From: Alistipes sp. ZOR0009
GTDB lineage: Bacteria > Bacteroidota > Bacteroidia > Bacteroidales > ZOR0009
Length of the DNA: 64,000 bases
Assembly: GCF_000798815.1 (NCBI RefSeq)
Contig: NZ_JTLD01000020.1
Coordinates: 1 to 64,000 of the forward strand
Direction: 5' to 3'
Shown here: one piece after another, positions 1 to 46,994 of the stretch
Position numbering within the stretch: the first letter of the stretch is position 1
Layout: each line of letters opens with the position of its first letter
Translations under genes and position numbers: made by a program
The notes under the pieces: generated by a model
The model's database searches: none
Told to the model about the DNA's origin: nothing
The model's input: only the letters and a program-made list of their open reading frames with translations

Positions 1-3000
1 CCGAATATGCTGCTGATATAGCTTGAGAGCTGGGGTTGGTTAGCGTTACATTAAATGTTAATGAACCACCCTCTACTATGGTTTGATTGTCGATAGAAAC
101 CTTTGGTTTCGCATCGTCGTTTAGAATAGTACCAACACCTGTAGAAGGAGCCCCAAGAGTAGCATTGCCAGATGGAGCCGATAGAACCAAAGAAACGGTT
201 TCATTAGGCTCGAACTTAGCATCTACCGTAGTGTAAACAGGCACATCAAGCGATGTTGTGCCAGCAGGGATTGTTACAACCGAGCTAGCAATGGCGGTAT
301 AGTCGCCATCAGCAGTAGCTGCTGTGCCATCTTGCGTTTTGCGTGTTACCGTTATAGCCGAAGAGCAAGGGTGACTAAGAAGTATCTTAAACGCGAGTTC
401 CTGTCCTTCGGTAGCTGAAATGCCCGTTGTTACGGTTATGGTTGGCTTAGCCTCGTTGTCGGTAATTGTGCCAACCCCCTTACTATCTGAGATGGTAAGC
501 TCTGTTGGACTAGAAAGGTTTAGATCAAACGTTTCTGTGCCTTCGTAAATATTATCGTCATTGGTCGCAATGGTAATTGTCTTTGATACTTCACCCGGTA
601 AGAAGGTTACAGTCCCAGCAGAGGCTGTGAAGTCGGAATTATCGGCATAACCAGCACCCGCATTAACAGCAGTTGTATATCCAACAGAAGTAGCAACTCC
701 ACTAGCATTGCTAAGTGTAATCGTAAAAGTAAGGTTGCTGCCTTCAGTGGCAGTAGCATCATTTACGGATACTGATGGAACAAGCGTATTGTAGATTTCA
801 ACATCATCCGAAGAGCTACATCCACCATTATCGATTGTCCAGCGAAGAACATAATCTCCAGGTTGTAGTCCTGTGATAGTAGCGTTAGGATTAGACAGAT
901 CGGAGAATGAAGGATCGGGGGCTCCGCTAGGTTTCGAAACAATGCTCCACATCCCAACACCGCTAGTTGGTGTATTTGCCGCCAAAACAGCAGCCGTTTT
1001 TTTGTAGAGCGATTGGGATACACCCGCATTTGCTGGAGTAACAGGCTGCTTAACCGTCATTTTTACCTGAGCCTCAGAAACAGGGCAGGAACCGTTTGAG
1101 ACAGTCCACTTGAATATATAATCGCCAGCAGTAGAGATACCCGCCAACGAAGTAGTATTGCTGTTAGGATTTAGAATAAGCACGTTACCACCGCTAACTT
1201 TAGACCAAGCACCATTCCCATCAACAGGGAGTGTTGCTGATAATGAAGGATTAGCACCGTATAGGCAGTAGCTAAAATCGGCAGGAACAACCGCAGTAGA
1301 AGGAGGATTGTACACATTGATTGTAACCTCATCAAAAGAGGTACAAGTACCAAGAGTTGTAGTCCAGCGTAACACGTATGTGCCCTGAGTTAAGCTAGAA
1401 ATAGTGGCAGTAGGGTTTGTTGGATCATCAAACGAGATAGAGGCTGGACCACTTTGCTTTGTCCACATGCCAGTAGTGCCACCTGAAAGCGTATTTGCCT
1501 GCAGCTGGGTAGTATATATATTGCATAGCGATTGATCAGCACCAGCGTTAGCTGTAGTAGGAAGATCTTTTATGGTAAGCTTTACATCATCGGTTTTAGC
1601 AGTACAGATAGCACCACTAGAAATAGTCCATCGCAGCGTATAATCGCCAGGAATCATGTTGCTTACCAACGCGTTGTTAAGCATCTGAGAGTCGAATGTA
1701 GGGGTAGAAGGACCAGAGATGACCGACCAAGTACCAACTCCAGCCGTAGGAGCATTCGCAGCAAGTAATGTCGAAGTTCCACAAACGTTTGTTTGATCTA
1801 AACCTGCATTAGCAATCGACGGTGCAGGATCATTTTGCACCGTAACATTCTGCTGGTTGGTACAGGTACCAGAAACAACCTTCCACGTGAATACGTAAGT
1901 TCCTGTTTTATTCAGAGAAATTGTAGCATTCGGAGCACTATTATTAGGAGTATAGTTAATTGTAGCTCCAGTCGGGAACGTAAGTGCACTCCATGTACCC
2001 GTTCCAGAGGCAGGAGTGTTAGCATTCATAACAACGCTATTTGCGGCACAAAACGACTTATCGAGCGTACCAGCATCAGCCAACGAAGGCATTTGGTCTA
2101 TCGTTACGGTCTTTGTTGCGGAGACACTACAGGTACCAGCATTAATTGCATACTGAAAAGTGTAAGTGCCAGGTATAAGACCTGTAGCCTTTGCAATATT
2201 TCCAGCCGCATTTTGGTTGGTAATAGTAGGAGTATTAGGACCCGAAACGTTTGTCCATGTATAGGTAACGCCCGAAGCTCCAATAACCATATTACCCACA
2301 AGGTTGGCATTATCGATAGAGCAGAAGCTCTCGGTAGGATTTGTAACAACTGCTGCAGGAAGCACCGTTACCACAACATCATCTGAGGTTGAAGGACAGG
2401 TTTCGCCAGCAGAAACTTTCCATCTCAAGGTATAGACTCCACTTGCCAATCCTGTAATCGATGAAGTAGGAGAAGCTACGTTTCCGAAAGTTGGCGTATT
2501 GGGACCAGACACAATCGACCAAACACCCGATCCAGTAGTAGGAACCGAAGCATCCAAAGTCGCATTGCTGGCATTACAAACCGAAAAGTCGGAGCCAGCG
2601 GCTGCGGCCGAAGGAGGAGTTGATGTAATTATTACAACGTCATCTGAAGACGAAGTACAGGCACCATTAGACACCGTCCACCTAAAGGTATACCTACCAG
2701 AAGAAAGACCAGAAGCGGTGGTATTATATACCATTGGATCGGCAAATGAAGCTTGCGTAACACCGGAAACCTGAGTCCACATACCCGACCCAAGAGCGGG
2801 GTTGTTACCAGCAAGCGTAACGCTTGTACCACAAAGCGAAAAGTTATCGGCACCAGCATTTGCAGCGGTTGGATTACCTACAGAAATAACAACGGTATCT
2901 TTGGTTGCTGTACATCCAGCCTTTGCAATCTTCCATTCAAACTTATATGTTCCAGATAGCAGGCCTGTTACACCCGAATTGTATAATGAGCTATTTGTAA

Positions 3001-5122
3001 TTGTAGCAGCATTAGGACCGCTAATCTGGCTCCATGTTCCTGTTCCTGAAGTTGGATTATTGCCCGCCAGCGTTGCCGATGTTGTACCTGCTGCTAAACA
3101 CTGATCGGAACCTGCACTAGCAATAGAAGCCCCAGCAGTTGATGATGTAGCAATAGCGTACGAGCTAGCACTAGTACCGCAAGCATTGCTGATTGTCCAA
3201 GTGAAAGTGTAGTTAGTATTATTAAGCAGGTTGGTTACTGCTGCAACCGGATTATGAATATCCGAAATTACCACCCCCGCACTAGGAGATACAGTCCATG
3301 TTCCCACTTCATTGCGAACAGGTGTATTACCCTCTAGGTAAACAACAGAGCCTGCACATGAGCTTGTGTTTGCACCAACCACTGAAGTAGTTGGTGAAGG
3401 AGCGCTGACAATTACATCAACCAAATCTTCGCTCGAAGGGCAAGTTGTTCCATTGGATACATACCATTTAAATGTGTATTTCCCAGCAACTAGATTGGTT
3501 ATGTTTGCATTGTAAGCCGAAGGATTGTCGATTGTAGCACTATTCGGGCCCGCAATCTGAGTCCAGCTACCCACTCCATTTGTAATAGAGTTACCTGCAA
3601 GCTGGGTGTTAAACACGTTACAGGCTAAGGTTTGATCTGTTCCGGCATTGGATAATGACGCATTACCCGATACTATAATAGTTATATCAGCAAAAGCAGT
3701 TGCACAAGCATTCCCAGATGGCACTGCTCTTAACCTTACCAAGTAGGTGCCTGGGCTCGTAAAGCCTGATAGCACGTTTGTAGTACCAGAAGTAATAGTT
3801 TTCCATGTGCTAGGGTAAGTTCCTGGAGCTGGTCCGCTTATTACGGAGTACTCGCGAGCACTAATACTTCCAGTAGCCGTAAATGCAACCACTGCCGATG
3901 AGGTACCACAGCTAACTCTGTAAGGAGAAGGAGTGGTGATTGTAATAGAAGGTGCAGTTGATGTAGATAAGGTTACTGTCGATGAGGTGCTAGAGCAGCC
4001 TGTAACAGTATTTCGAATCTGGTAAGTTACGCTTGTATTTGAGCTGGTTAAGCCAGATATAGTGTTGGTGGTAAGATTGTTTGGGGTAGAGAGAGTGGCT
4101 GAACCTGCAGTTCTATTCCACGCTACCACCTCGTTGGCATAAATCGGATTAGAACCTACCAGAAGCGTAGATGTTCTTCCATCGCAAAATGGAGCTCCAG
4201 TAGCGGTAATAGATGCTGGAGTTACAGCACCTTTTGCAGCAGCTACGGTAATCTGTGTCTCATCGCTACCGTTAACGCAAGCCCCAGCAACCGTCCATCT
4301 AAGGATATATGTTCCTGCAATCAGGTTCGATAACCCAGAATTGTTCTGATTCTTATTACTAAAAGTAGGAAGGTTTGGTCCACTCACAACAAGCCAAGTA
4401 CCTTGCTGATTTAAAGCAGCTCCACCACCTCCGAAAGAGCCTGATAGGTTGGCAATGTTACGTGATCCGCTGTAGCATCCATCGAGGTTTACATCTGCAC
4501 CCGCAGAAACAGCGCTAACGCCACCTCTGTTGGTTACCACAACATCGTCGAATGAGGAGCAGCCTTGCGCACTCGTAATGGTGTATCGAACAGTGGTCGC
4601 TCCGCTGTTGGCACCATTAAGCGATATCCCTGTGCTAGGGGCTGCACCATTTATTATGGTAACTCCATTATTGGTTCCCTGAACTGTCCAAGCTGGGGTT
4701 TCTCCTGCCGCAAGGGAAGTTCCTACAAGAGTTATAACATTTGTCCCCGGACAAGCAGTTACATCGGCACCCGCATTGGCTTTTGTTATTGCCCTTACGG
4801 TAATGGCAACTTCATCGCTGATTAGTGACCCATCGGAGCAGGTGGTTGCCAACCTAAACTTGTAGGTGTTACCTCCCACTAAGTTGGTAACCGTTGTGGT
4901 TAGGGTCGATGGACTCGTAATAGTTGCCGATGGTCCCTCAACCTGTGTCCATAGCGTTGGAGCTGTGCTAGACCCTCCTCTGGTTCCTACCAAAGTTAGC
5001 GTAGCATTCTCGCAAATAGTTTGAGGTGTACCGGCATTAATGGTGCAGTTTTGCGCATAAAGTTGTTCTCCCATTAGGACAATCAGCACAATCAGCAAAA
5101 ACCGAGCATAGTTCTTAAGCAT
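1..5122 (-). CDS. Giant secreted Ig/PKD-like and Calx-beta repeat protein (3' end beyond window)
   Basis: The minus-strand frame starting at ATG 5122 stays open to the left edge (1707 codons, no stop), so the C-terminus is missing. It begins with a signal peptide (MLKNYARFLLIVLIVLMGE, then LYAQ-NC). About 16 modules of 85-95 residues follow. They share NAGADQ..C near the start, GTW..VSGP in the middle and GTYTFRWTVSNG.C near the end, and most carry two cysteines. These look like PKD/Ig-like beta-sandwiches of large Bacteroidota surface proteins. From about nt 790 leftwards there are at least three Calx-beta modules (TEGSNLTFTITL, IYEGTETFDLNL, GVGTITDNE). Such proteins are usually exported, often by the type IX system, and act in adhesion or gliding. 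A sorting domain would lie beyond the window, so that part is inference. The next gene is divergent, with 428 bp between. Confidence 0.85.
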   Translation of the reverse strand, partial: MLKNYARFLLIVLIVLMGEQLYAQNCTINAGTPQTICENATLTLVGTRGGSSTAPTLWTQVEGPSATITSPSTLTTTVTNLVGGNTYKFRLATTCSDGSLISDEVAITVRAITKANAGADVTACPGTNVITLVGTSLAAGETPAWTVQGTNNGVTIINGAAPSTGISLNGANSGATTVRYTITSAQGCSSFDDVVVTNRGGVSAVSAGADVNLDGCYSGSRNIANLSGSFGGGGAALNQQGTWLVVSGPNLPTFSNKNQNNSGLSNLIAGTYILRWTVAGACVNGSDETQITVAAAKGAVTPASITATGAPFCDGRTSTLLVGSNPIYANEVVAWNRTAGSATLSTPNNLTTNTISGLTSSNTSVTYQIRNTVTGCSSTSSTVTLSTSTAPSITITTPSPYRVSCGTSSAVVAFTATGSISAREYSVISGPAPGTYPSTWKTITSGTTNVLSGFTSPGTYLVRLRAVPSGNACATAFADITIIVSGNASLSNAGTDQTLACNVFNTQLAGNSITNGVGSWTQIAGPNSATIDNPSAYNANITNLVAGKYTFKWYVSNGTTCPSSEDLVDVIVSAPSPTTSVVGANTSSCAGSVVYLEGNTPVRNEVGTWTVSPSAGVVISDIHNPVAAVTNLLNNTNYTFTWTISNACGTSASSYAIATSSTAGASIASAGSDQCLAAGTTSATLAGNNPTSGTGTWSQISGPNAATITNSSLYNSGVTGLLSGTYKFEWKIAKAGCTATKDTVVISVGNPTAANAGADNFSLCGTSVTLAGNNPALGSGMWTQVSGVTQASFADPMVYNTTASGLSSGRYTFRWTVSNGACTSSSDDVVIITSTPPSAAAAGSDFSVCNASNATLDASVPTTGSGVWSIVSGPNTPTFGNVASPTSSITGLASGVYTLRWKVSAGETCPSTSDDVVVTVLPAAVVTNPTESFCSIDNANLVGNMVIGASGVTYTWTNVSGPNTPTITNQNAAGNIAKATGLIPGTYTFQYAINAGTCSVSATKTVTIDQMPSLADAGTLDKSFCAANSVVMNANTPASGTGTWSALTFPTGATINYTPNNSAPNATISLNKTGTYVFTWKVVSGTCTNQQNVTVQNDPAPSIANAGLDQTNVCGTSTLLAANAPTAGVGTWSVISGPSTPTFDSQMLNNALVSNMIPGDYTLRWTISSGAICTAKTDDVKLTIKDLPTTANAGADQSLCNIYTTQLQANTLSGGTTGMWTKQSGPASISFDDPTNPTATISSLTQGTYVLRWTTTLGTCTSFDEVTINVYNPPSTAVVPADFSYCLYGANPSLSATLPVDGNGAWSKVSGGNVLILNPNSNTTSLAGISTAGDYIFKWTVSNGSCPVSEAQVKMTVKQPVTPANAGVSQSLYKKTAAVLAANTPTSGVGMWSIVSKPSGAPDPSFSDLSNPNATITGLQPGDYVLRWTIDNGGCSSSDDVEIYNTLVPSVSVNDATATEGSNLTFTITLSNASGVATSVGYTTAVNAGAGYADNSDFTASAGTVTFLPGEVSKTITIATNDDNIYEGTETFDLNLSSPTELTISDSKGVGTITDNEAKPTITVTTGISATEGQELAFKILLSHPCSSAITVTRKTQDGTAATADGDYTAIASSVVTIPAGTTSLDVPVYTTVDAKFEPNETVSLVLSAPSGNATLGAPSTGVGTILNDDAKPKVSIDNQTIVEGGSLTFNVTLTNPSSQAISAAYS

Positions 5123-8421: not shown

Positions 8422-9081
8422 CAGAAGGGTGTAGTATATGCTGCGCTAAGATTTTGCATGCCAAAGCGGAAATAAAAGGTATAGCTGTCGTTTACATAAG
8501 CGATGGCTATCTTTTTATCAAACGAGGTGGCTTTTGGTGTTCTTGGTTAGAATTGTAGCCTATATGGGCAATGGGCAGATTGGGATGGTGATGTGCCTCC
8601 TTTATTCTGGCTGGAATATTTCCCTTAGACTCCTTTTATAAGATTTATTTAATTGTGGAATGCAGGATTAATCTTTAGCGATAGCGCTTGTTTTGCTAGC
8701 GAAGTTTTTAATGGGCCAAAGGAAGAATGAAAGGCTACTCGTGTCCTTTTTATACCCTGTTTTTTATACAAACAGAGGATAAAAGTGGTGCTTTTTGGAA
8801 TTGGAAAAGTATTAATGTCCCCAAATGAGGCCAAAATGGAGCGGTTTTACTTCAAATAGGAGGGCCATTACGGCTTTCCTTGTTAACGATGTGTTGAGGT
8901 ATTTATTTTTGTTTTAATATACTTGTTAGTCAGATTTGTAGCAGCTGTGATGATGTATTTATGATGTAGCGAAATTGGGCGTATGATGTGTTTTTGAAGT
9001 AACATATTTTAACTCAATCAGCATTTGTTAACATACCTTCGTGCCGAGTCTTTAGACTAAACCAACTTAAAACTTTATCGA
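8422..9081. other. Long intergenic region upstream of susC
   Basis: This 660-bp spacer lies between the sensor-regulator and susC. A spacer this long suggests a regulated promoter and a long 5' leader. TACCTTCG at 9034-9041, 41 bp before the susC ATG, differs from the Bacteroidota -7 consensus TAnnTTTG at one base and is the best candidate, but no well-placed -33 element is visible. On the minus strand, 8418-8546 reads as an open stretch without a start codon; no family is recognisable. Nothing else can be supported. Confidence 0.4.
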
Positions 9082-12000
9082 ATGAAAAGAGCAGTAATCT
9101 TATCGATTTGGCTTGTTCTTGCTTTTTGCCTGCAATCGTTTTCGCAGGGGAAGGTAACGGGCAAGGTACTTTCGGCAACGGACGGGCAGCCCCTCCCCGG
9201 GGTGTCCATTTCCGTAATGGGCACAACACGAGGTGCGGCAACGAACATTGATGGAATGTTCGCTATAGAAGCAAAAAGGGGGGAGACATTGGTGTTTTCG
9301 TCAGTTGGGTACGACCAGCTGAAGGTTGTCGTATCGGAATCTGTAGTTAACGTACAGCTAAAGGAGACGTCGCAAAAGATAGACGAGGTAGTTGTTGTTG
9401 GTTACGGTGTTCAAAAGAAGAGCGTTGTAACGGCTGCTATAAGCAAGGTATCAGCCGAGCAGCTGAATACCACAAAGCCTTCTCGCGTGGAGGATGCGCT
9501 TAAAGGGAAAGTTTCGGGGGTGCAAATAACACAAAGTTCGGGACAACCTGGTGCAGACTCTAAGGTGCGTATTCGTGGAATTGGGACTATAAATAATAGT
9601 GAACCGCTATACATTGTTGATGGAATGGGGGTTGATGGAGGTATAAACTACCTTAATCCAACCGATATTCAGTCGGTAGAAGTGCTAAAGGATGCCGCTT
9701 CGTCGGCCATTTACGGGGCACGTGCTGCCAACGGGGTAATTCTTATTACCACCAAGAATGGGCAGAAGGGTAAATCGACCGTGAACTATGACGTAAGCTA
9801 CGGATGGCAAAATCCGTGGAAGAAGAAGTCGGTACTGAATGCAACGGAGTACATGACGATTATGAACGAGGCGCAAATTAATGACGGAGAGAAGCCTCGT
9901 TATACCCAAGCCGAGATAAAAGCAGCAGGCAAGGGTACCGATTGGCAGAAGGAGACCTTCAACTTTGATGCTCCAGTACAAAGCCATCAGGTAAGCTTGT
10001 CGGGTGGTACCGATAAGGGAACCTACTTCCTTTCGTTTGGCTACTTTGACCAGGAAGGTATCGTTGGTGGAAACCACAACAAGTCGAACTACGAGCGCTA
10101 CAGCATTCGCGTAAATGGTAACTACAACCTATTTGAGGATAACAGCCGCAGCTTTTTGAACAAGCTAAAAGCAGGTAGCAATATTGGCTACTCGCGTAGC
10201 AAATCGACGGGAGTTGAGACCAACTCGGAGTACGGGTCGATACTAGGTAGTGCGCTTACCTTCTCGCCCCTTGTACCTGTTTATGCCGATAAGGCAACAG
10301 CAGCTACGATTCTTAGCTCGTATCCTTATGCCGTAAAGGATAAGGATGGTAGGGTGTTCTCTATTCCGCCATCAGGATTCCAGGAGATTGCCAACCCAGT
10401 TGCCATGCTAAATCAGCCTAACAGCGGGTTGAATAACGATGATAAGATTGTTGCCAACTTTTGGGCAGAGCTTGATATTATGGACGGCTTAAAATTTAAG
10501 TCGAGCTACGGTGCCGATCTTGCTTTTTGGGGGTACGATAGCTACACGTTACCTTATTTCCTAGCAACTCAGGGTAAGAGCCAAGACTACAGCACTGTTC
10601 AAAGCGAAATGAACAGAGGCTACAAGTGGCAGGTGGAAAACGTATTGACCTACGCTAAGTCTTTCGATAAGCATAATCTTACAGTGGTATTAGGTCAGTC
10701 GGCACAGAAGTACACCTACAAGAATGTGGGAGGAAACTTCAGGGATCTACTCGAAAATGACCCTAATAAGGCTGTTATTAACTATGCAATTGCCGATCAG
10801 AAGCTCTCGAACTTATGGGGAGGAACCGGTGGATACGACAACACCTCGTTGGCATCGTACTTCGGTAGGGTTGACTACAACTATAGCGAGCGTTACATCT
10901 TCCAAGGAACGGTACGTAGGGATGGCTCCTCGAATTTTGGTCCTAGCCATAAGTGGGCCGTATTCCCCGCCTTCTCTTTGGGTTGGAATTTGACCAACGA
11001 AGAGTTTATGAAAAACAGGCCTTTGTGGTTTAACCAAATGAAGCTACGTGCTGGTTGGGGTAAGAACGGAAACGAGCGTATTGGAGGATTCCTCTATACA
11101 TCGTTAATGAATGGAGGTCAAAACTACTACTTCGGAGGTTCTTACCTGTTAGGTTCTGACTTGAAGAAGGTAGGAGAGAAGAGCGGGCAAATGCAGTATG
11201 GCAACTCGCCAGGTTACATTGCAAATCCAAATATTAAGTGGGAAGAGTCGGAGCAGATAGACTTAGGGTTCGATTCTAGATTTTTCAATAACTCCGTAAG
11301 CTTCGGTTTCGACTACTTTAAGAAGAAAACCAACGGGATGCTGATGAACCTTCCTATTCCTGATTACGTAGGTATTTCTGCACCAATGAGCAATGTTGGT
11401 GATATGGAAAACTGGGGTCTTGAGTTTGAGCTTGGCTATAAGAAAAAGGTGGGCGATGTTAACTTCTCTGTAAACGCTAATGCCACCTACCTAAAGAATA
11501 AGCTTATCAATTTAGGGAATGCATCTGGCGAAACGATCTACGAAAATGCAGGAGCATCGGGTGTCGGTTCGTACGTGAAGGGACAAAACGGAGAGGTTTT
11601 CCCCTTCTTCTACGGGTTTAAAACTGATGGAGTAGCACAAACCAAGGCACAGGCCGATGCCTACAACGCCAAGTATGGCGAAAAGGCGCAGCCAGGCGAT
11701 GTCCTTTTCCGCGATTTGAATAAGGATGGTAAGATTACCGATGCTGATAAGACAAAGATTGGAAAGGGAATGCCAGACTGGACTTACGGTATCTCTGTAA
11801 ATGCCGATTGGAAGGGCTTTGATGTTAGCCTATTTTTCCAAGGTACTCTAGGTAATGACATTTTCGACTTCTCGCAGCGTGGCGATATACCTGCTATGAA
11901 CCGTCCATCTTGGATTTTGGATCGCTGGATTGGAGAAGGAACCTCGAATTCACTTCCACGCATGACCAATAAGAACCCTAATGGAAACTGGCGCTCGTCT

Positions 12001-42530: not shown

Positions 42531-43223
42531 CTATATCGATGCCGCAATATCGCAAACGCGCAGTATGCTGTCGGCCTGAAAAAAGAGGGGCGAATCGAGC
42601 TTGATGTCTACCTTCTCGTGGCTCCAGGTGGTGTGGAAGGGGACGTGTACGCCGTAGCCGCCAATTTCGAGCACGGGGATGATGTCCGACTTGAGCGAGT
42701 TGCCTACCATTAGGAACTCGGCAGGTGCCACATCTAGGTGCTTTAGCAGCTTTTGGTAGTCGGAAGGCCCCTTCTCCGACATGATCTCTACGTGGTGGAA
42801 GTACTTTTCGAGCCCCGACTTGTGCAGCTTCCGCTCCTGATCGAGCAGATCGCCCTTGGTAGCCACCACCAGCCGGTAGCTTCCGTGCAGCTGCTCGAGC
42901 GTTTGCTCTACCCCGGCAAGCAGCTCTATCTCTTTTTCGAGCATCTCCTTCCCAAATCCGATAACCTGGTTAACGATGCCCGGCGATAGCGAGCCGTTGG
43001 AGATGCGAGCTGCCGTTTCGAGCATCGATAGGATGAAGGCTTTGATACCGTAACCGTAGAGCGGAATGTTGCCTATTTCGGTTTTAAGCAGCTCGCGCGA
43101 GATTTCGTGCGGCTCTAGGAACTCTTCGAGCAGGTGGCAAAAGCGGTGCTCCACCTCCTGAAAGTAGGGCTCGTTTACCCAAAGGGTATCGTCGGCATCG
43201 AAGGCAATGGTTTTTATGGGCAT
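42531..43223 (-). CDS. HAD-family hydrolase
   Basis: 230-aa cytoplasmic phosphatase-like enzyme. Motif I is FDADDTLW (D9 nucleophile, D11), motif II VVATKGD, the lysine of motif III lies in PSDYQKLLKH, and motif IV is FLMVGNSLKSDI. A helical cap lies between residues ~20 and 95. It resembles YjjG-like or phosphoglycolate-type members; the substrate is unknown. Its promoter element lies 16 bp upstream, directly beside the 42-bp repeat array. Confidence 0.9.
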   Translation of the reverse strand: MPIKTIAFDADDTLWVNEPYFQEVEHRFCHLLEEFLEPHEISRELLKTEIGNIPLYGYGIKAFILSMLETAARISNGSLSPGIVNQVIGFGKEMLEKEIELLAGVEQTLEQLHGSYRLVVATKGDLLDQERKLHKSGLEKYFHHVEIMSEKGPSDYQKLLKHLDVAPAEFLMVGNSLKSDIIPVLEIGGYGVHVPFHTTWSHEKVDIKLDSPLFFQADSILRVCDIAASI

Positions 43224-43238: not shown

Positions 43239-43246
43239 CAAAAGTA
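43239..43246 (-). promoter_or_regulatory. -7 promoter element of the HAD gene
   Basis: TACTTTTG on the minus strand (plus: CAAAAGTA) fits TAnnTTTG, 16 bp before the HAD start. The repeat array starts immediately upstream of it. Confidence 0.6.
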
Positions 43247-43650
43247 GGGATTCCGATTTGTTTGACGTCGGGTATTTTAAGCTTTTCTATCAGCTGTCGC
43301 CTATTTTTAGGTGTTTGGAAGCCGAAACCCATCAGCTGTCGTGCACTTCGACGGTTGGAAAAATGGTAATCCATCAGCTGATGAGCATTTCGACGCTCGG
43401 GAAAATGGTAATCCATCAGCTGATGAGCATTTGAACGTTCGGAAAAATGCTAATCCATCAGCTGATGAGCACTTCGACGCTCGGAAAAATGGTAATCCAT
43501 CAGCTGATGAGCATTTGGACGCTCGGAAAAATGGTAATCCATCAGCTGATGAGCATTTGGACGCTCGGAAAAATGCTAATCCATCAGCTGATGAGCATTT
43601 GGACGCTCGGAAAAATACTAATCCATCAGCTGATGAGCATTCTCTGAGGA
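43242..43650. repeat. Tandem array of 42-bp units, each with a palindrome
   Basis: Near-identical units start at 43368, 43410, 43452, 43494, 43536 and 43578, with a truncated unit at 43620. Each contains the palindrome CATCAGCTGATG followed by GAGCA and a GACGCTCGGAAAAATG-type tail. Older copies keep the exact 42-bp phase to the left (ATCAGCTG at 43331 and 43289), and a still more degraded one lies near 43242-43283. Variation between units is confined to a few bases. Because 42 is divisible by 3 and the unit lacks stops, it is open in several frames (for example a 14-residue unit NPSADEHLDARKNG), but no supported gene covers it. Confidence 0.95.
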
Positions 43651-43690
43651 GTAGATCTAGCTATTGTAGCATGCTGGGCGAGCTTGTAGG

Positions 43691-46075
43691 CTAAAAGTCG
43701 ACTTGGAACCGGGCTTTTATTTCGAATCGGGGGGCGTGCTGCAGCTTGTGCGGCGATACGCGGTAAACCCCTTCTATCCTAAAGAAGTTGAGGATGTTTT
43801 CGAAGCCTCCGCCTACCTCCAGAAAGGGTTGCTTTAGGCCGTGGAGCATAACAGGAAAGTCCAGAACCTCCCTGTGCTTGCTGGATAGCGATCCGGTAAT
43901 CATCTTTGCCGAAACTACCTCGCGGAGGTTCAGCTCGCGCAGCAGCGGCAGCCGGTTGATGATGGCGCCATTTAGGTGGTATTCCATAAAAAGGCTGGCG
44001 TACCTGTCGCTGGCCAGCTGCAGGTTGTTGAGGGTGTTGAACCGGTAGCGGGAGTAGCCGTAGGTTTCGTTTCCACGGTGCACCTCCAGCAACGGAAAGG
44101 GTACCGAGCCGGCTATTACTCCAGCCTCCAGCGCGTACTGCAGCTTTCCTAGTCCCACATTTACGTAGTGCTTGTAGGCTAGATGCAGCTTTAGGTACTC
44201 GCCCTTGCTTTGTGGGGTGGAGTAGTGTCCACCTGTAACTACCATATTAATTATCGGATATCGGGTGCCGAGGTAGTAGCGGCGCAGAAACTTATCGGTT
44301 GTCTTTTCCTTAAACGAAAGCCTTGTTTGCAGGCTGATGCTGCTGTTGCTAATCTTGTCGACAGGCGTACCGTTATAGGAGAAGGGGATAAACTCGCCCG
44401 AAGAGATGGTTTGAAAGTCGACTTTTACGCGAGATGCTACGCCTTTTGCAACCTCGCGCTCGCCCCAAACCGATAGGGTTTTGGAGATGGAGAGCCGGTC
44501 GTTGCGGCGGCGGCTGGCAAGCGATGCAATGAGGTTGTCCTCGCCCGCATGGAGCGAGTTTTCGCGTAGCAGCATCAGGTTGTCGTTGCTTCCGATGATG
44601 GTCATATCCTTTTCGTAGTCGATGCCCAGCAATGTGCGGTGCTCGCAGGATGGCTTGTAGGCAAATCCTGCTCCATACTTCCACTCCTTGTCTCGAAATC
44701 CGTAGCCCAGCTTGCCCGATAGCGAGTAGCGGGGGTGGAAGCTTTCTCCGGTACGGGCAGCCAGCGTTAGGCGCAGCCCCTCCACCTTGTTGTGCTTTAC
44801 GTACTCGAGGTAGGGACCAAGGTCCAGCTTCCCAAGGGGGAAGTATCCGGTAATGGCCGTTGTGGTAATCTTGTCAATTCCGCGCATCCACCACAGGTTG
44901 TTTAGCGAGTCGAGCTCGTGGTTTACCCGCAGCTCCTCTATGGAGAGGGCCGGCTGCACCTCCTTGGGGGCGTTGCTGGCAATGGTGTCATTCCCTATGG
45001 CTACGCTGCTGTAGTGGGTTGTTTTGTTGATGAGGAGCTTGTGCTTGCCATCAACCTTACCGCCCTTATGGTAGTAGAGCTCGGCAGCCACGCTGTTCTT
45101 ACGGAAGAAGAGAAGCGTATCGTTTACCGGGGCAAACTCGTACTTTATTTCGAAATCGGTAAGGTAGTTGATGTTGGCCGATTTGGGCAGGGCTGTCTCT
45201 ATCTTTCTAAGCGCCCACGTTTGCTTGTCAACAAGCATGAAGCCCTTAAAGGCGAGGTCCTTTTTTACCTTAGGCTTAAATTCGATGGTGTAAACCATGT
45301 TGCCGTTGATTAGGGCGCTGTCTTTTAGGTAGTACTTGTAGTACGATAGGCCGTTGTCGCCGATGGGGCTGTAAAATGTTTTACCGAAGAGGTCTATCTT
45401 GTTTTGGTAGAAGTTTACCTCTGCGCTCATGGCCGATTCGTACCCATCTACGTGGAAGTCGGCAAGAATACCGAGCCCGTTTTGCTTTTGGTAGATTACC
45501 TCCTGCTTCTCTAGCCCGGTGGTATGGTCGATAATGTTGTTGGCCCTTTTTTCGGAGTAGTATATCGGAAGCCGCTTGTCGTTGGCCGAGGCGGTGGTGT
45601 CGTTTTGGAGGTCTCTTCGTTTGTCTACCTGTACGGCTATTTTGGTGTTGGTTTGGCACCGGTACTGGCTAATGCTGGTGGGGTCGTTCTTCTTTCGGGA
45701 GGCAATAATCCGTCGAAGTATGGGGTGCGCTGGGTTTTCTCCTGGGCGAACTACGATTTCGTTAAGCGCGTAGGTCTCCTCCTGTAGGTAGATGATGTAG
45801 GATGGATCGGTTAGGGCTGCCACGGGCACAACAACGGTCTTGTAGCCAATGGCCGAAACCGCTAGGGAGTCTTTTTTTACTTTGCTTTTAATGTAGAAAC
45901 GTCCCTTATCGTCGGTGCGCGTACCGATGGTGGTACCCCTAAAATGGATGTTGGCGTAAGGTATGGGCTGCTTTGTTGCCTCATGCTTTACTGTCCCTGC
46001 TATATCCCCCCCGTGTGTTTTGTCATCGAATGACATAAATGCCAATGCGGCAAGTGTAATTAATAGTAACCTCAT
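43691..46075 (-). CDS. DUF5686 outer-membrane protein with carboxypeptidase-regulatory-like domain
   Basis: 794-aa exported protein. The signal peptide (MRLLLITLAALAFMSF) is followed by a beta-sandwich of the carboxypeptidase regulatory-like type (~24-100; ATKQPIPYANIHFRGTTIGT). The remainder is the DUF5686 region, which ends in strands typical of an outer-membrane barrel and a terminal phenylalanine (RFQVDF). RIIASRKKNDP and FKGFMLVDKQTWALRKIE are characteristic of the family. Its function is not established; members lie in the outer membrane of Bacteroidota. No partner gene is adjacent. Confidence 0.85.
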   Translation of the reverse strand: MRLLLITLAALAFMSFDDKTHGGDIAGTVKHEATKQPIPYANIHFRGTTIGTRTDDKGRFYIKSKVKKDSLAVSAIGYKTVVVPVAALTDPSYIIYLQEETYALNEIVVRPGENPAHPILRRIIASRKKNDPTSISQYRCQTNTKIAVQVDKRRDLQNDTTASANDKRLPIYYSEKRANNIIDHTTGLEKQEVIYQKQNGLGILADFHVDGYESAMSAEVNFYQNKIDLFGKTFYSPIGDNGLSYYKYYLKDSALINGNMVYTIEFKPKVKKDLAFKGFMLVDKQTWALRKIETALPKSANINYLTDFEIKYEFAPVNDTLLFFRKNSVAAELYYHKGGKVDGKHKLLINKTTHYSSVAIGNDTIASNAPKEVQPALSIEELRVNHELDSLNNLWWMRGIDKITTTAITGYFPLGKLDLGPYLEYVKHNKVEGLRLTLAARTGESFHPRYSLSGKLGYGFRDKEWKYGAGFAYKPSCEHRTLLGIDYEKDMTIIGSNDNLMLLRENSLHAGEDNLIASLASRRRNDRLSISKTLSVWGEREVAKGVASRVKVDFQTISSGEFIPFSYNGTPVDKISNSSISLQTRLSFKEKTTDKFLRRYYLGTRYPIINMVVTGGHYSTPQSKGEYLKLHLAYKHYVNVGLGKLQYALEAGVIAGSVPFPLLEVHRGNETYGYSRYRFNTLNNLQLASDRYASLFMEYHLNGAIINRLPLLRELNLREVVSAKMITGSLSSKHREVLDFPVMLHGLKQPFLEVGGGFENILNFFRIEGVYRVSPHKLQHAPRFEIKARFQVDF

Positions 46076-46382: not shown

Positions 46383-46994
46383 ATGCAGGTAAAGAGCGCA
46401 GTATTTGTGAAGAGCGCCCAAAAAGCGTCGCAGTGTCCTCCGCAAACGCTACCCGAGTTTGCCTTTATTGGGCGATCGAATGTGGGGAAATCGTCGCTGA
46501 TCAACTATCTTACTCGCCAGAAGGGGTTGGCAAAGGTGTCGGGGACTCCCGGCAAGACAAGGCTTATCAACTATTTCTTGGTAAATGATAGCTGGCATTT
46601 GGTCGATTTGCCCGGATACGGCTACGCGAAGGTGTCTAAAACCGACCGTCAGGGGTTTTCGGCCATCATTACGCAGTACCTAGAGGCTCGCGATAAGCTT
46701 ACCTGCCTGTTTGTGCTGGTGGATTCGCGCTTGGCACCACAGAAGATGGACGTCGAGTTTATGACGCTGCTGGGCCAGCATGGAATTCCGTTTGCCATTG
46801 TCTTTACCAAAACTGATAAAATAGGTATTCAGGTGTTAAAAGATAATGTTGATGTTTACACCAAGAAGCTGCTCGAATACTGGGAGGAGCTGCCGCCGAT
46901 GTTTTATACGTCGAGTTCGAAAAAGAGCGGGGCGGACGAGGTGCTTGGCTACATCGAGGAATGTATTGCAATCGTTAACACAAATATGGAGTAG
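46383..46994 (+). CDS. engB: Ribosome-biogenesis GTPase EngB (YihA/YsxC)
   Basis: 203-aa GTPase needed for assembly of the large ribosomal subunit. G motifs are complete: G1 GRSNVGKSS, G2 region GTPGKT, G3 DLPGYGYAKV, G4 TKTDK and G5 SSSKKSG. ATG 46383 fits the promoter position. It is a single gene, followed 73 bp later by prs, which has its own promoter element. Confidence 0.96.
   Translation: MQVKSAVFVKSAQKASQCPPQTLPEFAFIGRSNVGKSSLINYLTRQKGLAKVSGTPGKTRLINYFLVNDSWHLVDLPGYGYAKVSKTDRQGFSAIITQYLEARDKLTCLFVLVDSRLAPQKMDVEFMTLLGQHGIPFAIVFTKTDKIGIQVLKDNVDVYTKKLLEYWEELPPMFYTSSSKKSGADEVLGYIEECIAIVNTNME

Follow-up and report, generated by a model that had tools for sequence, protein, structure and literature searches.

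Background

The nearest precedents for the tandem array described here are the BrickBuilt and MITE464/PgRS repeats of Porphyromonas gingivalis. Both are MITEs that bear minisatellites: BrickBuilt has a leader, 23-nt repeats and a tail, and MITE464/PgRS has 41-nt repeats; both are intergenic and multicopy, and the copy number of BrickBuilt/MITE464 differs between strains (PMC4596501). Two further systems resemble the array in part. REP/BIME sequences of Escherichia coli and other bacteria are extragenic palindromic units that form regular clusters (PMC3733652, PMC2817692), and heptanucleotide repeats, including TAACTGA of the Beggiatoaceae (PMC4679880) and the cyanobacterial STRR, are intergenic and keep one fixed unit length. 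Minisatellites in bacterial intergenes are commonly regarded as noise or as typing markers.

We analyzed a 64,000-nucleotide stretch of DNA (the window), which comes from contig C20 of a Bacteroidales-like draft genome (G000; 4.45 Mb). An earlier note, made from this stretch, had described a palindromic tandem array of 42-bp units directly upstream of the promoter of a HAD-family hydrolase gene. Like BrickBuilt and MITE464, this array consists of intergenic direct repeats without spacers in a member of the Bacteroidales, with many copies per genome. Leader- and tail-type flanks, as in BrickBuilt, are found at several sister loci but not at the window copy. The period is 42 rather than 23 or 41 nt, the unit is unrelated as far as compared, and the genus carries a class of many mostly unrelated unit families with few loci each. 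Units of the array are extragenic and palindromic like those of REP/BIME, and by analogy with them could bind a protein or gyrase; unlike REP/BIME, they are 42 bp long, run head to tail and fall into many unrelated families. REP/BIME repeat a single palindromic stem-loop of 20-40 bp many times per genome, whereas the family of the window unit comprises about 50 units, many of them with imperfect palindromes. With heptanucleotide repeats the class shares weak 7- and 14-bp lags in its 42-bp units and the presence of separate 7-bp arrays in the same genome, but its main period is 42 and not 7, and its long units have dyad symmetry. A CRISPR array is excluded, since here the 42-bp unit recurs as a whole, with no unique spacers between the repeats. 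A search of the open literature found no description of a 42-bp lock across a genus; subscription papers fell mostly outside this scope, and the result is weak evidence of novelty.

Methods

Tandem arrays were called with TRF; for the genus comparison, those with a score of at least 100 and a period of 30-60 bp were counted. The genus sample came to 1.4 Mb from three species, with 0.8 Mb from the genome of the window (G000), 0.4 Mb from G001 and 0.2 Mb from G002, and one genome per species underlies the comparisons. Controls were 0.53 Mb (526 kb without N) from other genomes of the same order.

Results

TRF places the window array at 43329-43641, with a period of 42, 7.5 copies, 92% matches and no indels. 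Within it CATCAGCTGATG recurs seven times in steps of exactly 42 bp, where shuffles would give 0.10 occurrences. Identity at lag 42 reaches 0.92 over 270 bp here and at most 0.38 elsewhere in the window. The 42-bp palindromic tandem array is therefore real, and its described make-up of six near-identical units and a truncated seventh holds as well. Six canonical type-A units (43372..43623, plus strand; consensus CATCAGCTGATGAGCATTTGGACGCTCGGAAAAATGGTAATC) match the consensus at 39-42 of 42 positions, and the truncated last unit, CATCAGCTGATGAGCATT, occupies 43624..43641 on the same strand in both the TRF call and the unit table. The other arrays likewise terminate inside a palindrome-bearing unit.

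Two further units lie to the left on the plus strand. The unit at 43330..43371, which begins CATCAGCTGTCGTGCACTT, agrees with the consensus at 35 of 42 positions and carries the motif GTCGT.CACTT, a variant with which the repeats at C77, C61:172, C2, C52 and C80 also begin. Because this motif is common to the first units at five other loci, unit 43330 is a conserved leader variant and not a decayed copy. The unit at 43288..43329, which begins TATCAGCTGTCGCCTATTTTTAGG, is a single degenerate unit left of the TRF-called array; it has 21/42 consensus matches, scores 78% to type-B units (E 2.6e-5) and was classed as a terminal, type-B-like unit. These two units had been taken for degraded older copies, followed by a barely visible third, with decay running from right to left. 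The supposed third copy, at 43246, agrees with the consensus in 8/42 positions, fewer than expected by chance. There is no gradient of decay, and the conservation of leader units between loci contradicts one.

The window unit is a member of a 42-bp unit family dispersed in its own genome, with about 50 type-A and type-B units at about nine loci. Arrays are found on C61 (nine type-A units and one type-B unit), C77 (five type-A and one type-B), C57 (one type-A and two type-B) and C2 (13 type-B), and at C24:55353-55503, and single units are found at C61:173, C52, C80 and C2:69158. Nearly identical type-A units also stand at the start of C24 and the end of C47, and judging from this likeness the two contig ends are probably one array split by the assembly. 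In general, 42-bp arrays seem to break the G000 assembly and would account for several of its contig ends.

The palindrome that had been noted is present in the window array, but the full 12-bp form does not characterize the family throughout. It occurs in 15 of about 50 units, and only approximately ATCAGCTG is constant across all of them; many units read CATCAGCTGATC or CATCAGCTGTTT, and many have imperfect palindrome arms (TGATC, TGTTT, TGTCG). No covariation was found at the within-unit hairpin pairs 14-25 of own-genome type-A units. The dyad of the window unit itself amounts to 22/42 self-reverse-complement matches, which makes it an average class member and is not significant alone (p = 0.125), and the 21-bp subperiod described below for the class is absent from it (0.19 identity).

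Sister loci of the family have conserved flanks. A conserved multi-hairpin element of about 130 bp lies immediately before the array on C61, C77 and C47, and it precedes a leader unit on C2, C52 and C80. On C61, C52 and C57 the units are followed by a tail of about 290 bp that ends in a group II intron-like domain 5/6; the corresponding Intron_gpII match in the C80 copy is 31.1 bits, below the 40-bit gathering score. Neither a leader nor a tail nor a terminal inverted repeat was found at the window copy, and no group II maturase (GIIM) domain was found in the genome. A group II intron origin of the array was rejected, given that the domain 5/6-like sequences are 3' fragments only, are sub-threshold, lie beside sister arrays and not in the window array, and have no maturase. 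Rfam matches of the array were at chance level only, with no known RNA family among them. No plasmid or phage relatives of the array were found, and exact 16-mer matches in IMG/VR were single chance matches and not arrays.

Several other observations were made on repeats of this genome. The palindrome of the 130-bp element is TAATCGCAGCTAGCTGCGATTA, and the element, one or more 42-bp units where present, and the 290-bp tail make up a composite, copies of which lie at 1-560 and 1255-1389 of L181 (C61), 8700-9101 and 9975-10254 of L174 (C80), 7079-7545 of L183 (C52) and 13117-13490 of L173 (C57). Orphan genes, for example those for a DUF2971 protein and an SMR transporter, stand singly between composite copies on the opposite strand in a cassette-like manner. 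An integron was considered and rejected: no integron integrase scored above the family cut-off, and the attC R'/R'' pattern was not apparent when the sites were inspected. Contig C71 (L264) encodes at 1996-3366 a 456-aa tyrosine recombinase with an N-terminal extension and the best, although sub-threshold, match to the integron integrase TIGR02249; a 42-bp array that begins GGCTTAATACTCCATTAAGCC is located about 1.2 kb away, at C71 4614-4808. The genome also has arrays of about 22 and 43-44 bp. A second array family of 22-bp period (TAACCCCATCGTTGGGGTTGGG), its unit equal to two helical turns, reaches up to about 31 copies at 7371-8734 of L175 (C46) and 4835-5385 of L184 (C2), near the 130-bp hairpin element. 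Intergenic arrays of the heptamers GATATGA / ATCTCAC, with periods of 7, 14, 21 and 28 bp, occur at 12763-12951 of L182 (C47), 14864-15149 of L183 (C52) and 8294-8391 of L188 (C80). Finally, the same stretch of about 76 bp, which begins GCTTCGCCACGGGTGTTGGCGGATGG, opens contigs C61 (L181 1-80) and C77 (L180 1-76) and is another dispersed repeat end.

The window array lies between the HAD-family hydrolase gene (42531..43223, minus strand; Pfam PF00702) and a gene for a CarboxypepD_reg_2 + DUF5686 protein (43691..46075, minus strand). A YsxC/EngB-like GTPase gene, identified from sequence (46383..46994, plus strand), forms the right border of the interval. The HAD promoter element claimed at 43239-43246 was confirmed as a Bacteroidetes -7-type motif, TAnnTTTG, on the minus strand upstream of HAD. 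The gene order OMP-HAD-YsxC-PRPP synthase is kept in both same-genus relatives (G001 and G002), where HAD adjoins YsxC at a spacing of 190 or 226 bp without a 42-bp array; both are too diverged from the window here for an insertion boundary at base level. The DUF5686 gene is at this site only in the species of the window, together with the array; its best homologue in G001 (56%) is about 1.02 Mb away. A chloramphenicol acetyltransferase-family gene (PF00302; 41880-42509), located between the OMP gene and HAD, is likewise extra with respect to both same-genus genomes.

The HAD-YsxC intergene of both relatives contains a similar promoter-like block, TACCTTTA, on the minus strand. Since this block is retained where the array is missing, the array is dispensable as a component of the HAD promoter. 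The earlier note held that its link to the promoter would fail if the unit proved to be a common dispersed repeat unconnected with promoters, and this is largely what the genome search found, with arrays in intergenes of all orientations. A HAD-specific role of the window array is thus unsupported. In G002 the HAD-YsxC intergene holds short 7- and 14-bp repeats (L186 2978-3121). Both relatives also have an orthologous 42-bp array, of sequence unrelated to the window family, directly 3' of HAD (L187 3429-3750 in G001; L186 3915-4185 in G002); the two are 69% identical over 134 bp without a gap, and the 42-bp register is kept. This array is absent from the window, where the acetyltransferase gene occupies the interval.

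Across the genus sample, 34 arrays with a period of 30-60 bp were found, 28 of them with period 42, five with period 41 and one with period 44, and none with any other. The 526 kb of control sequence gave no array of period 42 and scattered periods of 39, 41, 46 and 59. A TRF-independent lag scan of the genus, the control row of which was spoiled by masked N runs, gave the same peaks at 42, 84 and 126. Period-42 arrays of unrelated sequence also occur on C52 and C71 and at C57:1-120. Arrays with a period of 41-43 bp number about 11 per Mb in G000, 38 in G001 and 45 in G002, which on extrapolation suggests roughly 50 to 180 of them per genome. By heuristic ORF calls, 42 of 46 arrays lie outside ORFs. 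These intergenic arrays are flanked by convergent (14), co-directional (16) or divergent (9) genes, or have one neighbor that is unknown (3), and so show no promoter preference.

Most pairs of units from different arrays are no more alike than shuffles, and a minority are clearly homologous within or between species. Dyad symmetry is strongly enriched: on average a unit matches its own reverse complement at 22.97 positions and a shuffle does so at 19.24 (sd of mean 0.38; z about 10), and inverted repeats are significant in 12 of 36 units. A 21-bp subperiod is present in the units (z = 8.4), with a weak rise at lags 7 (z 2.8) and 14 (z 2.7). One G002 array is related to the window family, scoring 70% against the window array (opposite strand) and 68% against the type-B array. 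It has nine palindromes at 42-43 bp steps, with arms CATCA/TGATG in five and CGACA/TGTCG in four, none being mixed. This compensated change (two pairs, both sides) is supportive only and may reflect one event copied by duplication.

Discussion

The window array is a minisatellite of a dispersed 42-bp unit family; it and the adjacent DUF5686 gene occupy an interval that stands empty in the two relatives. The class with which it is compared consists of intergenic, mostly sequence-unrelated, dyad-symmetric arrays that are locked to 42 bp (or 21, 41 or 84) in three species. The window array agrees with this class in its intergenic position and its period, its own symmetry being nominal only, and we consider its identity as a minisatellite and its membership of the class to be very probable.

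A length of 42 bp corresponds to four turns of B-DNA at 10.5 bp per turn, and each palindrome would therefore lie on the same face of the helix. We propose that this face would offer a palindromic site at every fourth turn, one per dyad-symmetric unit, and that the arrays may act in intergenic DNA as a platform for a putative dimeric DNA-binding, nucleoid or topoisomerase-type protein, a logic that resembles that of BIME arrays. Copies would be added or removed by slippage or unequal recombination, and the helical spacing would be held by selection or by an array-building process while the sequence drifts. Such a phased palindromic platform is the most likely explanation, with neutral minisatellites of inherited period nearly as likely. 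The identity of the array and this mechanism, taken together, fall a little short of even confidence, and the mechanism alone is put forward more tentatively still. In its favor are the period lock among mostly unrelated units, their dyad symmetry and 21-bp subperiod, and the gap-free orthologous array of the relatives. Against the platform, a 42-bp lock would also result if the period had been inherited from a single ancestral minisatellite. The imperfect palindromes of the own-genome units, their lack of within-unit covariation, the non-significant dyad of the window unit and its lack of a 21-bp subperiod, the arrays of about 22 and 43-44 bp in this genome and the detectable homology of some arrays also speak against it, and the binding protein is hypothetical.

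The alternative of neutral minisatellites, selfish or slippage-driven, supposes that a 21/42-bp ancestor spread to many intergenes, that its sequence drifted until no likeness was left and that unequal exchange kept the period. The 21-bp subperiod is what such a history would leave, as are the homology of some arrays within and between species, the shared register of orthologous arrays that are about 30% diverged, and the occurrence of arrays in every gene orientation. Harder to reconcile with it are the shuffle-level likeness of most unit pairs, an enrichment of dyad symmetry that is not expected from drift alone, and the occurrence of 41-bp arrays but hardly any other lengths. We regard this history as a serious possibility that is nonetheless doubtful.

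Alternatively, the array could be a minisatellite carried inside a non-autonomous mobile element of the form leader-repeats-tail, the window copy having lost leader and tail. This has a precedent in BrickBuilt, and in the 41-nt repeats of MITE464/PgRS (PMC4596501), and the 130-bp element and the domain 5/6-bearing tail at the sister loci fit it. The window copy, however, has no leader, tail or terminal inverted repeat, no such flanks were seen at the unrelated 42-bp arrays elsewhere in the genus, and the genome yielded no group II maturase domain. We consider the element rather unlikely as the explanation of the array, and note that element-borne spread is compatible with both the platform and the neutral readings.

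It is improbable that the array is transcribed as a REP-like series of hairpins that stabilizes or terminates the DUF5686 mRNA at its 3' end. The array does lie 3' of DUF5686, and each of its strands folds better than shuffled sequence (z -3.0 and -3.9), but pairing between units makes long palindromic arrays fold well trivially. Moreover, the array contains no terminator-like site, and the own-genome family shows no within-unit covariation.

The model implied by the earlier note, in which the repeats form an operator or UP-type array that binds a regulator of HAD/acetyltransferase, has very little probability left. Its appeal is the position of the array, 42-65 bp upstream of the HAD promoter motif. 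In the relatives that intergene carries a similar promoter-like block without an array, the unit family occurs at unrelated loci, and 42-bp arrays are also found in convergent intergenes; the array is not a dedicated HAD operator. A coding function as a 14-residue peptide repeat is close to negligible and was rejected, because the frames that do run open across the array (four, for example 43311-43694), as had been remarked, are unexceptional against 2.6 in shuffled units (P = 0.21) and the variable columns fall on all codon positions without bias, and sister arrays of 41 bp and 42/43 bp moreover break the frame.

Returning to the phased platform, a far-reaching version would have dozens to well over 100 arrays per genome, of independent sequence, with a period held at four (or two) turns by an architectural protein that reads palindromes on one face of the DNA or by an array-building activity that measures 42 bp; we think this possible but, on balance, unlikely. 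The reading of the window array as a regulatory array linked to HAD is ordinary and largely refuted, and the worth of the locus is as an entry to the fixed-period repeats of the genus. It also serves as a warning that single arrays should not be read as operators of the next gene. The real puzzle is the repeat length that is fixed across the genus, and not a switch for a neighboring gene. A genus-wide period of four turns lets us ask, by comparing orthologous intergenes, whether such a length is selected, inherited or manufactured, and the answer could bring to light a duplication mechanism that measures length or a new nucleoid or topology system.
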